In this document: in pieces, positions 7,198-32,295 of the stretch
Numbering within the stretch: the stretch's first letter is position 1
How the letters are laid out: every line of letters starts with the position of its first letter
From: Candidatus Sungbacteria bacterium RIFCSPLOWO2_01_FULL_47_32
GTDB lineage: Bacteria; Patescibacteriota; Minisyncoccia; Sungbacterales; GWA2-42-14
Assembly: GCA_001820685.1 (NCBI GenBank)
Contig: MHQP01000031.1
Location: 1 to 37,322 of the forward strand
Direction of reading: 5' to 3'
DNA: 37,322 nt
The notes under the pieces: generated by a model
The model's database searches: none
What the model saw: only the letters and a program-made list of their open reading frames with translations
What the model was told of the DNA's origin: nothing
Program-made: the position numbers and the translations under genes

Positions 7198-7860
7198 TTA
7201 TTTTTGCCACGGAGGAATACATATCGGCTCATATATTCGTATCGTCTTCCCTTGTGCATTTCGAGCTTCGATTTTATAGCAAAGAGTTTTTATTTGGGCT
7301 TCGGAAGTAAAATCTTCTGCATTTGCGTTGCGGTTAGCTTTTGCCAGCAGTTGGCCAATATCAACAAATGGGCCGTCTACGGCGTAAGCTCTGAATATGC
7401 GGTATTCTACCGCCCTATCGTCCGTGTCCCAATTAAGATCAATTGACTCAAGCAAATTGCTTCCAACAAGATCACTTTGAGCGTTTGAAATGGTGGGGTT
7501 TTTTGTTTTTTCGTCTTGCCACGGAGGAATACAAATCGGGCCATATGTCTTAATTACCGCCCCGTTCACGCCCATTGCTTCCATCTTGTAGCAAAGCGTT
7601 TTTGTTTGTGCATCAGGAGCAAAATCCTCTGTGTTGGTGCCGTGGTTAATGCACTTGATGGGACTTGAGCCGATATCTCCTGAAGACACCTGCATTCCTT
7701 CTTCGAGCGTTACTCCTTCAGACCCGAAGAGGACGAAGGTGTCGGCATTAAAAAAAAGCGGCGGTCTCGATGGATAGTGAGACGCCGCCAAAAGAATGCC
7801 GCCGACTGCGAAAGCAGAAATAACGTGGTGAGAGCGGATTTTTTTATGCAATTGTGCCAT
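7198..7860 (-). CDS. Secreted protein with internal duplication (FN3-like)
   Basis: A 220-residue protein with a basic N-terminus and one hydrophobic segment (residues 12-26, signal or anchor). It contains two copies of the same unit. The first, about residues 75-113, has EDFAPDAQTKTLCYKMEA and ends YGPICIPPWQ. The second, about 181-219, has EDFTSEAQIKTLCYKIEA and ends YEPICIPPWQ. Each has two Cys that could form a disulfide. Between them, LNWDTDDRAVEYRIFRAY has the look of an FN3 domain. I do not recognise the protein; it is probably a surface or cell-wall protein. It lies 6 bp after ruvX and leads into the other secreted proteins. Confidence 0.75.
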   Translation of the reverse strand: MAQLHKKIRSHHVISAFAVGGILLAASHYPSRPPLFFNADTFVLFGSEGVTLEEGMQVSSGDIGSSPIKCINHGTNTEDFAPDAQTKTLCYKMEAMGVNGAVIKTYGPICIPPWQDEKTKNPTISNAQSDLVGSNLLESIDLNWDTDDRAVEYRIFRAYAVDGPFVDIGQLLAKANRNANAEDFTSEAQIKTLCYKIEARNAQGKTIRIYEPICIPPWQK

Positions 7861-15624: not shown

Positions 15625-16032
15625 TTACAGTTTAGATACAAATTTCGTTTTTATCGGAAGCTTATGCCCGGCAAGGCGCATTGCTTCCTTAGCGATGTCT
15701 TTCGCCACGCCATCCATTTCAAAAATGATACGCCCAGGCTTGATCGGAAAAACATAGTGGTCAACATTTCCCTTCCCTCCTCCTAGGGTCATTTCAGCGG
15801 CTTTTTTAGTCACCGGTTTATCGGGAAAAATACGGATCCAAACCTTTCCTCCGCGCTGGATGTAGTGCATCATTGCTTTTCGCGCGGCCTCAATCTGGCG
15901 GGCTGTTATCCATTTCGGTTCTTCGGCTTTAAGCCCGAAGGAGCCGAATGCAAGTTCAGTTCCCCGAGTATCATTCCCGCTCTTTGGCCTCTTTTGCCAT
16001 TTTCTGTGTTTTACTTTTTTTGGTTGTAGCAT
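15625..16032 (-). CDS. rplP: 50S ribosomal protein uL16
   Basis: A 135-residue protein near the peptidyl transferase centre and A-site tRNA elbow. Diagnostic parts: VKHRKWQKR at the start, [20 protein letters not shown] and [20 protein letters not shown]. The intact start is preceded by a two-stem mobile element and, beyond it, by a second, slightly different copy of the first 12 codons (16130-16164), so the 5' end of this gene appears to have been replaced. Confidence 0.97.
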
Positions 16033-16045
16033 AATTTTAGCTTTT

Positions 16046-16129
16046 GTCCCGCTATCTATCAGGTATTATTTAAAGGATAGCGGGATCCCGACTTCATTAT
16101 TTTAAAATATTTATGCTGAGCGTCGGGAC
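16046..16129. mobile_element. Two-stem repeat element (family F), rplP copy
   Basis: An 84 bp element made of two adjoining hairpins: GTCCCGCTATC pairs with GATAGCGGGAT, and TCCCGAC pairs with GTCGGGA, meeting in the centre as GATAGCGGGATCCCGAC. The loops are AT-rich. The same design, stem for stem but with different loops, occurs at 24732-24814 in reverse orientation. The GCTATC end faces the intact rplP and the GTCGGGA end faces the rplP remnant. Confidence 0.8.
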
Positions 16130-16164
16130 CACTTTCTATGTTTTATTTTTTTTGGCTGCAGCAT
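16130..16164 (-). pseudogene. Remnant of the rplP 5' end
   Basis: Read on the minus strand this is ATG followed by codons for LQPKKIKHRK and all but the last base of a Trp codon, which is completed by the element end. Compared with the intact rplP start ([12 protein letters not shown]), 5 of 36 bases differ, all transitions, and only one changes an amino acid (Ile/Val). The remnant ends exactly where the repeat element begins. The pattern of differences is that of two functional alleles, not of a decayed duplicate. Confidence 0.8.
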
Positions 16165-21930: not shown

Positions 21931-22027
21931 ATCCCGCCCTAATTTTACTTGAGAATTTTCCTTCTGCTCAATTTACTTTTTCGCCGTAAATCTTTTCTAC
22001 AAATTCTTCAGTAAAATTAGAGCGGGA
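21931..22027. repeat. Inverted-repeat element downstream of rpsJ
   Basis: ATCCCGCCCTAATTTTACT at 21931-21949 pairs with AGTAAAATTAGAGCGGGAT at 22009-22027 (18 of 19), giving a 97 bp unit. Its size and CCC...GGG ends recall the 109-112 bp mobile elements and unit 2 of the rplR-rpsE spacer, but no target duplication is visible. Confidence 0.65.
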
Positions 22028-22041
22028 TAAAGGTTTTGCAG

Positions 22042-24643: not shown

Positions 24644-24667
24644 GCGGCGAAATTACGCCGCTTTTTT
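24644..24667 (+). terminator. Intrinsic terminator of the second lipoprotein cassette
   Basis: The stem GCGGCG-AAATTA-CGCCGC is followed by six T, starting three bases after the stop codon. Confidence 0.85.
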
Positions 24668-24731
24668 ATTTCTTCCCTTCGGCAATCTGCGCCGCAATAT
24701 TGTTTGGAACTTCCTCGTAGTAATCAAACTC
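24666..24731 (-). pseudogene. Remnant of the fusA 3' end
   Basis: On the minus strand this encodes [21 protein letters not shown] and a TAA stop, a second copy of the EF-G C-terminus. The intact gene ends [21 protein letters not shown] with TAG. Most of the roughly nine base differences are synonymous. The remnant begins exactly at the end of the two-stem element. There is no start codon or upstream frame, so it is not translated as such. Confidence 0.85.
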
Positions 24732-24814
24732 TCCCGACGTTCTATTAAAAAATAATTTAAAGAAGTCGGGATCCCGCTATCCTCCATATATTAGTCTTGA
24801 ATAGATAGCGGGAC
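24732..24814. mobile_element. Two-stem repeat element (family F), fusA copy
   Basis: The 83 bp element has TCCCGACGTTC pairing imperfectly with GAAGTCGGGA, then CCCGCTATC pairing with GATAGCGGG, joined in the centre as GTCGGGATCCCGCTATC. It matches the rplP copy (16046-16129) in reverse orientation, with the same stems and unrelated AT-rich loops. The GATAGCGGGAC end faces the intact fusA and the TCCCGAC end faces the remnant, as at rplP. Confidence 0.8.
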
Positions 24815-24820
24815 ATGTAG

Positions 24821-26932
24821 CTACTTCTTACCCTCGGCAATCTGAACTGCAATATTGCTTGGAACTTCCTCGTAGTAATCAAACTCCATAGAATAGCTTG
24901 CGCGTCCCTGCGTAAGCGAGCGGATTGCCGTTGCGTACCCGAACATTTCTGAAAGCGGAACTTTCGCGCGGATAGTTTTTATACCAAGTCCCCTATCGGA
25001 CATTTCTTCAATGCGGCCTCTTTTTGAATTAAGGTCTCCCGTAACCTCGCCGAGAAAGTTTTCCGGAGTTACGACCTCAACCTTCATGATTGGTTCAAGC
25101 AAAACAAGCTGGGCACGCTTCGCAACTTCCTGGAGCGCCATGGAACCCGCGATCTTAAACGCCGCTTCAGACGAGTCAACATCGTGGTACGAGCCATCAT
25201 AAACGGCAACGCGAACATCCACCAACGGATACCCCGCGAGTACACCTCTGTCCATCGCTTCTTTAACGCCCTTTTCAACTGCAGGAATATATTCTTGAGG
25301 AACGATTCCCCCCTTGATTTCATTTTCAAATTCAAAACCTTTCCCGCGTTCGAGCGGCTCAATCCGAAGCCACACGTGTCCATATTGCCCGCGTCCTCCC
25401 GACTGGCGAATATATTTTCCTTCCGCTTCGGCGGTCTTTTTGATGGTTTCCTTATAGGCAACCTGCGGACGCCCAACGTTCGCTTCAACCGAAAACTCCC
25501 TCTTCATGCGGTCAACGATAATTTCAAGATGGAGTTCGCCCATGCCTGAAATGATTGTTTCTCCCGTTTCCGTGTCTCCCTTAATTCTGAAGGTCGGGTC
25601 CTCATCAGAAAGGCGCTTCATGGCCATACCCATCTTTTCCTGGTCGGCTTTTGTCTTCGGTTCAATCCTCAACGAAACGACTGGTTCCGGAAATACGATT
25701 TTTTCAAGAATAATCGGCTTTTCCGGGTCGCAAAGAGTATCCCCCGTCCGGGTCATTTTCAACCCAACAAGCGCCCCGATATTCCCGGCTTGTATTTCTT
25801 TCAGCTCTTCCCGCTGGTCCGCGTGCATTCGCAAAATACGCCCGACCCGCTCCTGGTCTCCTTTTGTAGCATTCAAAACATAACTTCCGGCCGTAAGCGT
25901 TCCGGAATAAACGCGAAAATACGTCAATTGGCCGACGAACGGGTCGGTTTGCAGTTTGAAAGCAAGGGCCGCAAACGGCGCGTCGTCTCTTGCTTCGCGG
26001 GTGATTTCGGCGCCCGATTTCGGGTCAATTCCTTTTACCGGCGGAAGATCCAGCGGGGAAGGAAGAAAATCAACAACGCCGTCGAGCACCAATTGCACGC
26101 CTTTATTTTTTAAGGCCGTTCCGCAAAATACCGGAACCAGGCGATATGAAAGTGTTGCCGTGCGAAGAGCTTTTTTAATTTCATCCGCCGCAATTTCCTT
26201 TCCCTCAAGAAAGCGTTCCGTAAGAGAATCATCCGTTTCTGCGACTTTTTCCCAAAGATTGTTATGCCATTTTTCTGCTTCGGCTTTCAACTCTACGGGA
26301 ATATTGGAAAGAATTATTTTTTCTCCTCTCTCCCCTTCAAACGTGATCTTCTTCATGCGTATAAGGTCAACAACGCCTTCAAAATTCTCCTCACTACCGA
26401 TTGGAACCATAACCGGAACGGCATTCGGAGTAAGGCGATCCCAAATGGAACGAAGCGCTTTGTCCCACGATGCCCCCATTCGATCGAGTTTGTTTATAAA
26501 ACAAATTCTGGGGACTTTGTATTTGTCCGCTTGTCTCCATACTGTTTCCGATTGTGGTTCCACCCCGGCAACCCCGTCAAAAACAACGACTCCGCCATCA
26601 AGAACCCGGAGCGAACGTTCTACTTCGACGGTAAAATCCACGTGACCTGGAGTATCAATAATGTTTATGCGGTATTCATTCTCGTGTGTCTGTTTTTCGG
26701 CGGGCAAGTAAGTCGGCTTCCAGAAGCAGTTTGTTGCAGCCGATGTAATGGTAATTCCGCGTTCTCTCTCCTGCTCCATCCAGTCCATGACGGTGTCCCC
26801 CGTGTGAACCTCGCCTATTTTGTGGGAAACTCCCGTATAAAAAAGAACACGCTCCGTTACGGTCGTTTTCCCTGCATCAATATGTGCGATTATCCCGATG
26901 TCTCTTGTTCTTTCAAGAGGATAGTCTCTCAT
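24821..26932 (-). CDS. fusA: Elongation factor G
   Basis: The 703-residue translocase GTPase moves tRNAs and mRNA after peptide bond formation. P-loop [19 protein letters not shown], the switch region with [25 protein letters not shown] and NKLDRMGA are intact. Domain IV includes the tip region around [11 protein letters not shown], and domain V ends [15 protein letters not shown]. Its last 20 codons are duplicated on the far side of the adjacent repeat element, so the gene end may have been exchanged. It is preceded by the 207-residue orphan gene rather than directly by rpsG. Confidence 0.99.
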
Positions 26933-29182: not shown

Positions 29183-30637
29183 ATGGAAAGGCGAATTTTC
29201 GGCCTTGAAAATGAGTATTCGACCTGTGAAAAAAGCAGAGATGGGTTTATATCAGTTTCCGGAAGTTCCGTATTCCCGAGTTGGTTCATTAGGCTGAAAG
29301 AAAATCCGGTTATAAAAAAATATAAGCTTAGTTCAGAAACCTACCAGGATACTATTGACGGCTGGATTGGCGCAAACGGCGGACGTTTTTACCTTGATAT
29401 TAACGGAAAATTCATTCCCGAATATGCAACCCCCGAATGCGACTCCCCGCGCGTTGCCGCAATCCACGATAAGGCGGGGGAACTGTTCTTGCATGAACTC
29501 CGAACCGCTATTGCAAAGGAATATGCAGAGCGAAATGGGGAAAAACCCCCTTCCATCATTATCTCCAAAAACACAACTGTTAGCGACCAAGGGCCCCTTA
29601 CCACCTCGTATGTCGGAGTGCACGAAAACTACCTCTACAATAACTCCATTTTTCTGAAAGAAGCGGATAAGACCACTCTTCGGAATTTTCTCGGCCCGTT
29701 CTTTGCTTCACGCGTCATTATCAACGGTGCTGGCGGCATACGAAAAGATTCCGACGGCCGGTGGCGATATGTTATTTCCCAACGCGCGTTCAAGGCAGCC
29801 AGCGACAGGTGTTTCGTAACCGAAAAACCTGATGAGTATAACCAGAATACGCTGATTCGGCTCCACATCGTGCACGGCGACCCGAATATGTCGCCATTCG
29901 CCACATACCTGAAACTTGGAACGGCCCATCTGGTACTCCGCGCCGCCGAAGAAAGCTGTATTGCCAATCCCCCGGTCGAACTCCCAGACAACTCACACAG
30001 AGCGCTGACAGCATTTTCACAGGATACTTCTCTACAAAAAACGGTCCGCGATGAACTAAGGAAAAAGAACTATCGCGCGCTTGATATTCAGTATGAATAC
30101 CTTCATTATGTCCATCGCGCCGTCCACTCCCTCTCCGAAGAAGATAAGCAAATCCTCCGCGACTGGGAGTGGGTACTCGTAGCGCTCGAAAGGAATCCCG
30201 AAGAACTCCACCGGCATCTCGACTGGGTAACAAAACTCGTCCACATGAGGCACACAACGAATGATTTCGGAAACCCGAAAGCCCGCATGTTCGATTTCCT
30301 TTACTCCGACATCAGCCCGGCAGGGATCTACAACCGCCTTCGAAAGAACGGCTATGTTTATGAATTTGTGTCTGACGCGGAAATTGAGAGAACAGGGCTG
30401 ACTCCGCCCCGTACTCGCGCCTCGGTGCGCGCGCGATACCTTACAGAAGTGTTTGAAAAGAATTTCCCGTACTTTTATGTAAACTGGAACCTCGTTCACG
30501 GCGTAAATGGCGTCAGGCTAAATGATCCGTTTGAAACAACGAGTGAGTCTCTTGAAAAAATGCTTGAGGAGATAGCAAAAGGTATCTGGCCTAGCAGCCT
30601 CCAGCAGCCGGATTCGGAATTTTATGGCGACTTGTGA
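29183..30637 (+). CDS. PafA/Dop-family carboxylate-amine ligase (Pup ligase-like), copy 1
   Basis: The 484-residue protein belongs to the pupylation enzyme family, which joins (PafA) or removes and deamidates (Dop) a small modifier on protein lysines. Seen: the N-terminal metal-binding motif RRIFGLENEY with Glu9, as in actinobacterial PafA. The catalytic-Asp region is GANGGRFYLD (Asp72), followed by IPEYATPEC. Later motifs are GVHENYL, LHIVHGDPNMSPFATYLKLG, HLDWVTK and, near the end, VRLNDPFETTSESLEKML. The AAGGAG site fixes the start. The short segment between Glu9 and Asp72 lacks the long Dop loop, so ligase is the better guess. No Pup-like gene or proteasome gene is in the window. It ends in a strong terminator. 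Confidence 0.85.
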   Translation: MERRIFGLENEYSTCEKSRDGFISVSGSSVFPSWFIRLKENPVIKKYKLSSETYQDTIDGWIGANGGRFYLDINGKFIPEYATPECDSPRVAAIHDKAGELFLHELRTAIAKEYAERNGEKPPSIIISKNTTVSDQGPLTTSYVGVHENYLYNNSIFLKEADKTTLRNFLGPFFASRVIINGAGGIRKDSDGRWRYVISQRAFKAASDRCFVTEKPDEYNQNTLIRLHIVHGDPNMSPFATYLKLGTAHLVLRAAEESCIANPPVELPDNSHRALTAFSQDTSLQKTVRDELRKKNYRALDIQYEYLHYVHRAVHSLSEEDKQILRDWEWVLVALERNPEELHRHLDWVTKLVHMRHTTNDFGNPKARMFDFLYSDISPAGIYNRLRKNGYVYEFVSDAEIERTGLTPPRTRASVRARYLTEVFEKNFPYFYVNWNLVHGVNGVRLNDPFETTSESLEKMLEEIAKGIWPSSLQQPDSEFYGDL

Positions 30638-30660
30638 GAAATAAAATAAGACAGAAAAAC

Positions 30661-30690
30661 CCGTCCCGCTTTCAGCGAGACGGTTTTTTT
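30661..30690 (+). terminator. Intrinsic terminator after the first PafA-like gene
   Basis: CCGTCCCGCT-TTC-AGCGAGACGG (nine pairs, one mismatch) is followed by seven T. It separates the two paralogues into different transcripts, at least in part. Confidence 0.85.
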
Positions 30691-30798
30691 ATTTTACGCC
30701 ATACAAATTAAAAAAATTGGAGACAGACCGGTTGACCAACCCGCTCGAGAACCGTAAAGTAACGCTATCCCCTTTTCTTTGAAAAAATGGATGTATTC

Positions 30799-32295
30799 AT
30801 GCAAAAGCGCACGATGGGTATTGAGACCGAATACGGGCTCCTTCTTAGGCGAAGCAACGGCAAGTTTTGCCAAAAACCGGTAAACGCAAAATTTCTCGCT
30901 CACCCATGGCTGACCCAAACCAAAACGTTCGACGAACTCTATCTTTTCAAAGACGAAAACGACCCCACAAAAGGGCTGTGGATCGGCGCAAACGGCGGAA
31001 AAATCTACCACGATACCGTTGCGTCAAGCAAAGACCTTGACCGCGCTGAATATTCTTCCGCCGAATGCATAAACGGCAAAGATGTCGCCCTGTATGACGC
31101 CGCCGGAGACCTTCTCATGCAAAAAGTCCGCGAATCGTTCATGAGGTCTGGCGCATTTAAGCGCATGCATTGCGCAACGCACGCGCACGAAGACGTTGTC
31201 ATTTCAAAAAATAACTCCGACTTCATCCGCCCGGCTGAAAAACCCAGAGAAAGCATGCACTTTTACGGTTCGCATGAAAACTATATTGCCTACAAGCGGT
31301 TCTTTCGCGTGAATGAAATCGACGGCTTCACGGAGTGCATTCTTCCTTTTCTTGTTTCCCGCACTATTCTCCATGGATCGGGCGGAATGTGGTATACGCC
31401 CGAGAGCGGCTGGCACTACGTTATTTCTCCGAGAGCGCTTGCAACCTTTCGGGCCGAGGGCAGGAGTGCCATATATGAACGACCCATCATCATGTCAAAA
31501 GACATCGGAATAGATGACAGAAAAAAATTGTACATGCGGCTTCATCTTGTCTATGGAGACTCGAATATGTCCCCACGCTCAACATGGATCCGGTTCGACT
31601 CAACGCATCTCATGCTCCGCGTTCTCGAGGAACTTGGCAACGAGGCGCGTTTGCCGGTATTGGAAAACCCTATGGAGGCGCTCCACGCGTTCGCAACAGA
31701 CACGACGCTCAAAGCAAAAGCGGAAACGCATGACCACGGGCATCTCACTGCACTCGATCTTCAAAAACTTTGCATTGAATTAGTGCAAAAACTTGAACTT
31801 TCCGATTACGAAAAGGCATTCGCCGAATATTGGGCAAGCGTCGTCCGGCGCCTTGAGGAAGACCCTCTAAACCTCCGAAAAGAGCTTGACTGGGTTATCA
31901 AGAAAAACTTCATTGAGCGCTCAATGGCGCGCCATGGATATGACATCCGGCATGAAAAAGCCCGGGTGCTTGATGTTTCCTATTCCGAACTTTCCCCAAA
32001 AGGCATTTACTACCGCATTGAGGCGGCCGGAGGCATAGAACCTCTTTTTGCAAAAAAGAGCGTTGAAGCCGCCTTGCAGACACCGCCCCCGGAAACGCGG
32101 GCGGCTCTAAGAAGCAAATACATCATCGCCGTCCGAAAAAAATTCGGCAAAAAAAGTAGCGGCGATTGCACGCTTGTGCGCTGGGAATCCGTCCACTACG
32201 CGCCAAAGGTGCGCCTCGACAACCCCTTCGCGACGAAGTCAAAACGGCTCACGAGAGTCTTGAATTCGAAAAAATTTTTAAACCCCGCTACGTGA
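30799..32295 (+). CDS. PafA/Dop-family carboxylate-amine ligase, copy 2
   Basis: A second member of the same family, 498 residues from the ATG at 30799. An ATG four codons upstream (30787) is possible, but the chosen start puts the metal-binding Glu at residue 9 (RTMGIETEYG) and the catalytic-region Asp at residue 72 (GANGGKIYHD), exactly as in copy 1. Other motifs: AEYSSAEC, GSHENYI, RLHLVYGDSNMSPRSTWIRF, RKELDWVIKK, SYSELSPKGIYYRIE and VRLDNPFATKSKRL. It differs clearly from copy 1, so the two probably have different roles (ligase and depupylase, or two ligases). No convincing ribosome site is visible. Confidence 0.83.
   Translation: MQKRTMGIETEYGLLLRRSNGKFCQKPVNAKFLAHPWLTQTKTFDELYLFKDENDPTKGLWIGANGGKIYHDTVASSKDLDRAEYSSAECINGKDVALYDAAGDLLMQKVRESFMRSGAFKRMHCATHAHEDVVISKNNSDFIRPAEKPRESMHFYGSHENYIAYKRFFRVNEIDGFTECILPFLVSRTILHGSGGMWYTPESGWHYVISPRALATFRAEGRSAIYERPIIMSKDIGIDDRKKLYMRLHLVYGDSNMSPRSTWIRFDSTHLMLRVLEELGNEARLPVLENPMEALHAFATDTTLKAKAETHDHGHLTALDLQKLCIELVQKLELSDYEKAFAEYWASVVRRLEEDPLNLRKELDWVIKKNFIERSMARHGYDIRHEKARVLDVSYSELSPKGIYYRIEAAGGIEPLFAKKSVEAALQTPPPETRAALRSKYIIAVRKKFGKKSSGDCTLVRWESVHYAPKVRLDNPFATKSKRLTRVLNSKKFLNPAT

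Follow-up and report, generated by a model that had tools for sequence, protein, structure and literature searches.

In the window (the whole stretch of 37,322 nucleotides analysed here, belonging to genome G000), the 3' end of the EF-G gene fusA and the 5' end of the ribosomal protein L16 gene rplP each lie next to a small element of two hairpins that splits a remnant of the old gene end. The best explanation, which we consider fairly likely, is that these are ORF-less mobile double-hairpin elements which home into conserved sites in essential translation genes and bring with them a replacement gene end. The features of the two loci are the following:

15625-16032, minus strand: intact rplP (ribosomal protein L16), an ORF with the replacement start
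16041-16046, minus strand: 6-nt remnant CAAAAG, codons 13-14 of the old rplP, beyond the element (by-eye comparison with TGG CAA AAG of the intact gene)
16047-16128, plus strand: second element copy, with hairpin 1 at 16047-16085 and hairpin 2 at 16086-16128
16129-16164, minus strand: remnant consisting of the first 12 codons of the old rplP, MLQPKKIKHRKW, flush with the element end
24666-24731, minus strand: remnant consisting of the last 22 codons of the old fusA, stop TAA included, flush with the element end
24732-24771, minus strand: hairpin 2 of the fusA element, TCCCGACTTCTTTA...CGTCGGGA, from sequence and fold
24772-24813, minus strand: hairpin 1 of the fusA element, TCCCGCTATC...GATAGCGGGA, from sequence and fold
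24814-24820, minus strand: 7-nt remnant CTACATG of the old fusA, directly upstream of the insertion point and touching the new stop
24821-26932, minus strand: intact fusA (EF-G), an ORF whose last ~22 codons are the replacement end according to the comparison of tails

Read along the minus strand, the TAG of fusA is followed by CTACATG, the 82-nt two-hairpin element (24813-24732) and a second tail of 22 codons. The original prediction had described a two-stem element of 83 bp after the intact fusA stop; the element was confirmed, with a size of 82 bp, but the 7 intervening nucleotides of old fusA had been missed. These resemble the native TTCTATG upstream of the fusA insertion point, a match that is weak when G000 is considered alone. 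Since they derive from the old fusA, the element interrupts the remnant instead of separating it from the gene. The 66 bp beyond the element repeat the EF-G C-terminus with a stop, as predicted, and the two tails are identical at 58 of 66 nucleotides. Differences had been put at about nine, mostly in third positions; six are third-position and two second-position differences, and the amino-acid changes are the expected Ser/Asn and Val/Ala. The tail repeat scored 49.6 (the highest score from 20 block-shuffled windows was 18.6), the element region folds with a z of -4.8, and hairpin 2 matches covariance model R1 with 64.7 bits, this copy being itself included in the model's alignment.

At rplP, the second element copy, likewise absent from the original prediction, shares 80% identity with the fusA copy across 66 nt and splits the old start after codon 12. 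The fusA and rplP remnants are the sole short-range direct repeats above shuffled background in the window, apart from the internal repeats of one unrelated ORF (7198-7860, with a repeat of ~72 nt at 7204-7648, 312 nt apart). An inverted repeat with 28-nt arms, 89% complementary (ATCCCGC...GCGGGAT), was also observed directly downstream of rpsJ (21931-22028); it starts like the element, and no gene remnant is present there. An Rfam scan of the window detected only a tRNA-Pro, and no group I or group II intron. Elsewhere in the window, 29183-32295 encodes two adjacent proteins of the Pup-ligase family (PafA/Dop-like, Pfam PF03136), in a small genome.

The origin of the two ends was addressed with eight gene-end pairs from the window and relatives (fusA in three genomes, rplP, rpmG, rpsG, rpsI, and clpP). 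Out of 76 differences, 63 are in third codon positions, and 60 of the 68 changed codons are synonymous, with 8 nonsynonymous. In 400 simulated runs of a remnant decaying neutrally next to a constrained copy, the third-position share averaged 41% and reached 57% at most, and nonsynonymous codons never numbered fewer than 38. The third-position bias and the synonymous excess thus reject neutral decay of the remnant, in agreement with the earlier exclusion of a decaying duplicate. Judged from this codon pattern, each end evolved in a functional gene, in a lineage of its own, and the two came together recently, a conclusion that, like the anatomy of the loci, is very well supported. Mutagenesis by a diversity-generating retroelement was rejected on reading the pairs, since tail differences are not confined to A.

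Comparison of fusA 3' ends with those of relatives had been proposed as a check of the exchange. In G005, the tails encode the same peptide, yet they differ at 14 of 63 positions, as many as tails of different genera do. In G000, by contrast, the tails are each other's nearest (7 of 63 differences versus at least 12 to others), pointing to a close, unsampled relative as donor; no donor was identified among the 23 genomes of the order compared, none other of which belongs to the genus. In the complete genome of G012, 54 local repeats were found versus 0 in the shuffled control. Several of them are gene-end pairs around hairpin inserts (rpsG, rpsI, clpP, and tRNA-Leu), and others are ordinary protein-internal repeats.

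The fusA arrangement recurs in relatives. In G000, G005, G012, and G152, which represent four genera (the G152 locus was found through a junction-pattern search across 383 genomes), the element occupies the identical fusA codon boundary, between M and E of YTM/EFDHYEE, with 6-10 nt of the old gene touching the new stop and then a second tail that has diverged. The equivalents of CTACATG are TTTCACAATG in G012, TATGATG in G005, and ACGATG in G152, and the origin of the short remnant in old fusA is clear in G012 (native sequence TTCACAATG) and in G152 (exact match). One hairpin subtype, unlike that of G000, is common to G005 and G152, which belong to different families, so that at least two subtypes exist among the four loci. 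A fifth insertion at the same site, in G053, has other hairpins and identical tails; at this locus (L197), the differing hairpin insert measures ~150 bp, and the site sequence also occurs in inverted orientation. The five fusA loci, in five genera, have the insertion site in common. In the first set, a second tail was present in 4 of 71 resolved fusA ends, exactly the four with an insert. The arrangement is not vertically inherited, which had been named as the outcome contrary to an exchange. Most relatives have neither an insert nor a second tail. Together with the codon pattern, the five loci support the proposal that the element interrupts the old end and that the functional one stems from a lineage that had diverged.

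A similar organisation was found in tRNA genes. At three loci (L100, L047, and L216), a tRNA split in the anticodon loop is restored when the flanks of the element are joined (Thr-TGT, Cys-GCA, and Thr-TGT, respectively), and in a fourth case the joined flanks restore a tRNA-Val across the junction. Each of the first three loci also carries, within hairpin 1, an intact tRNA for the same isoacceptor, with 53/72, 54/71, and 60/74 positions identical to the broken gene (74-81%), a divergence indicating a replacement from elsewhere rather than a self-copy. The same picture emerged for tRNA-Cys by reading, without joined-flank prediction, at L004, L208, and L212, and the replacement tRNA adjoins the element across a short remnant, as in fusA, at L045, L091, L109, and L129. 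A dense array of ~21 tRNAs was also noted in G012 (L248-L249, G012:C1:439820-442718), giving this 0.92-Mb genome a second tRNA set.

Across the family, the element is built of two hairpins that lie flush, first TCCCG...CGGGA and then TCCCGACTTCWTTA...GCGTCGGGA. Genomes with matches to a hairpin 2 covariance model numbered 23 of the 86 related ones; there were 11 matches in the window's genome (some overlapping on opposite strands), 17 in G012, and 25 in G058. The named matches belong mostly to Ca. Paceibacteria, including Harrison-, Sung-, Ryan-, Lipton-, and Tagabacteria, among others. Three exact-pattern matches in other taxa (L203, L206, and L210) look like chance, the rest of the element being missing, and neither the element core nor a degenerate fusA tail matched any viral contig. 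Further insertions lie in or beside tRNA genes, 16S and 23S rRNA, and RNase P RNA. One element lies near a 16S rRNA 3' end (L005, G012:C1:681678), and Rfam scores a group II intron domain further downstream. In G037 (L097, G037:C17:1-8000), two near-identical elements 3.3 kb apart and a duplicated tRNA-Val surround a Y1 transposase gene. The copies are dispersed and target duplication is absent: joins are clean in uvrB (read by eye), hppA, and tRNAs, with none of the target-site duplication expected of a MITE, and a long target duplication was rejected because contiguous remnant sequence flanks the element on both sides.

Four insertions in protein genes are in frame and free of stops: those in rnhB, hppA, a CCA/poly(A) polymerase-family gene (Pfam), and a gene that reads as uvrB, the given fragment of which has no Pfam match. 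They suggest that the element is translated, and they speak against self-splicing. Palindromic inserts tolerated in frame inside genes are also known from Rickettsia (Rickettsia palindromic elements), for which we know of no gene-end replacement. The likeness is one of description, and the host group is unrelated.

Small GIY-YIG ORFs (Pfam) were found in the same architecture, comprising an intact tRNA, the GIY-YIG ORF, and a hairpin-split remnant of the same tRNA. In relatives, it involves tRNA-Asp (L292), tRNA-Asn (L279), tRNA-Phe (L097), tRNA-Trp (L294), and tRNA-Met (L296), and at a tRNA-Ser locus of G012 it appears in two nested rounds; on contig C24 of the window's own genome, it is present beside tRNA-Ala with a decayed GIY-YIG ORF (L308). 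A direct repeat spans the ORF at 8 of 18 GIY-YIG loci, some of these being hairpin repeats and not gene remnants, versus 3 of 150 random positions. Element and GIY-YIG gene occur as pairs within 500 bp in 3 cases versus 0.5 expected, a modest excess that by itself is no more than suggestive. Endonuclease genes were lacking from both window loci, fusA and rplP, and from every fusA site that was seen.

From the GIY-YIG association and the parallel with fungal mitochondria, homing appears a reasonably probable mechanism. A GIY-YIG endonuclease would cut the intact gene, and repair of the break from the incoming allele would copy in the element and a cut-resistant gene end, both arriving together. 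The foreign-lineage replacement would restore the severed end of the essential gene, while the old end would stay as a remnant beyond the element. The window copies would be relics or non-autonomous passengers devoid of an endonuclease gene. Simple homing does not obviously predict the short stretch of old sequence left between replacement and element, and this counts against it. Given that the arrangement recurs both at one fusA codon and across many further genes, the replacement seems to travel with the element instead of being a separate repair. The exchange originally proposed for fusA probably represents a recurrent, homing-based process rather than a one-off repair.

Several of these features could be reached by other routes. 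Tandem self-duplication of the gene end, with the element entering the spare copy and slow decay thereafter, would agree with the G000 tails being each other's nearest and with some young cases whose copies are nearly or fully identical (tRNA-Leu in G012, fusA in L197). It is nevertheless strongly disfavoured and very unlikely, because the third-position bias rejects neutral decay and the replacement tRNAs are only 74-81% identical to the broken ones. Tails derived from diverged lineages, and a new gene end that directly joins the remnant at the boundary of the gene or close to it, would also result from natural transformation with homology-facilitated illegitimate recombination. DNA arriving from a relative would have recombined within the gene body and been joined illegitimately at its other end, the hairpin being inserted later or passively in the dead remnant. 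This sequence of events is unlikely, given that four fusA cases share the same codon and the same 6-10 nt spacing to the element, that genomes without the insert have no second tail, and that replacement tRNAs sit within the element's own hairpin.

The anticodon-loop insertions, the precise recurrent fusA site, and the restored gene ends resemble the action of a tyrosine recombinase that integrates a mini-element at an att-like core in conserved genes, the attachment site restoring the gene end as in tRNA-gene genomic islands, and L197, where the repeats are long and identical and the core recurs in inverted orientation, fits this pattern as well. However, insertions are also found at gene starts (rplP, rpmG), in RNase P RNA and rRNA, and in frame within genes, the sequence common to insertion flanks is only weak, and in G012 and G005 divergence between the two copies extends across the putative core. 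No integrase gene was noticed adjoining the elements, although not in a systematic search, and we regard such integration as rather improbable. Hairpins and clean insertion are likewise expected of REP-like sequences mobilised by Y1 (RAYT) transposases, and in G037 a Y1 gene lies between two identical elements. Nevertheless, there is no Y1_Tnp match in G058 (25 element matches) or G029 (5), and Y1 is present in 52 of 86 genomes, many of them without elements, so that mobilisation of this kind is highly improbable.

Several known systems come close. In fungal mitochondria, gene hybrids arise via mobile endonuclease ORFs (LAGLIDADG, GIY-YIG), as in Allomyces atp6 and in Glomus atp6, atp9, cox2, and nad3; in Glomus, these ORFs bring foreign C-termini and the native end remains as a remnant (PMC3630166). 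Here too, a foreign end is fused in frame to the gene of the host, and a remnant of the native end lies downstream. In the fungal hybrids, the endonuclease ORF lies between the copies, whereas here it is found only at some related loci, including tRNA loci of the same genome. Unlike them, the present cases are bacterial, the window copies are ORF-less, gene starts and whole tRNAs are replaced, and a two-hairpin element marks the junction. The double-hairpin elements known from Allomyces mtDNA (Paquin et al., 2000), as described in PMC4478555 and PMC2800124, similarly consist of two adjacent hairpins, dispersed and without target duplication, a likeness of description; in contrast to them, the elements reported here reside in bacterial chromosomes and are tied to gene-end replacement. 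A survey of rRNA genes in CPR, the same bacterial group, reported short ORF-less inserts and GIY-YIG ORFs outside introns, the latter judged to be outside homing, and replacement of broken genes is not described in its accessible sections (PMC11270868). Finally, the synthetic drive HomeR, based on engineered CRISPR in Drosophila, homes into an essential gene at the 3' end of its coding sequence and provides a re-coded rescue (PMC7968924). Insertion in the end of an essential gene together with a replacement is shared with HomeR, whereas here we infer the role of a nuclease.

A tiny hairpin element with an adjoining foreign replacement end, recurring in further essential genes and in relatives, suggests a natural version of an engineered home-and-rescue drive. 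The chances are about even that Paceibacteria harbour a large natural class of such selfish elements, breaking essential genes (EF-G, ribosomal proteins, tRNAs) and carrying the replacement. Drives that destroy an essential gene and supply its substitute are known mainly as engineered designs, with the fungal mitochondrial hybrids as a natural parallel. If this reading is true, these bacteria would offer a natural model for the evolution, resistance, and loss of home-and-rescue drives, and some of the many small GIY-YIG genes in their genomes would acquire a function. Core genes would have been patched with sequence from other lineages, leaving two-hairpin scars, and the universal markers of Patescibacteria (fusA, ribosomal proteins, tRNAs) would be partly mosaic, affecting phylogeny and annotation.
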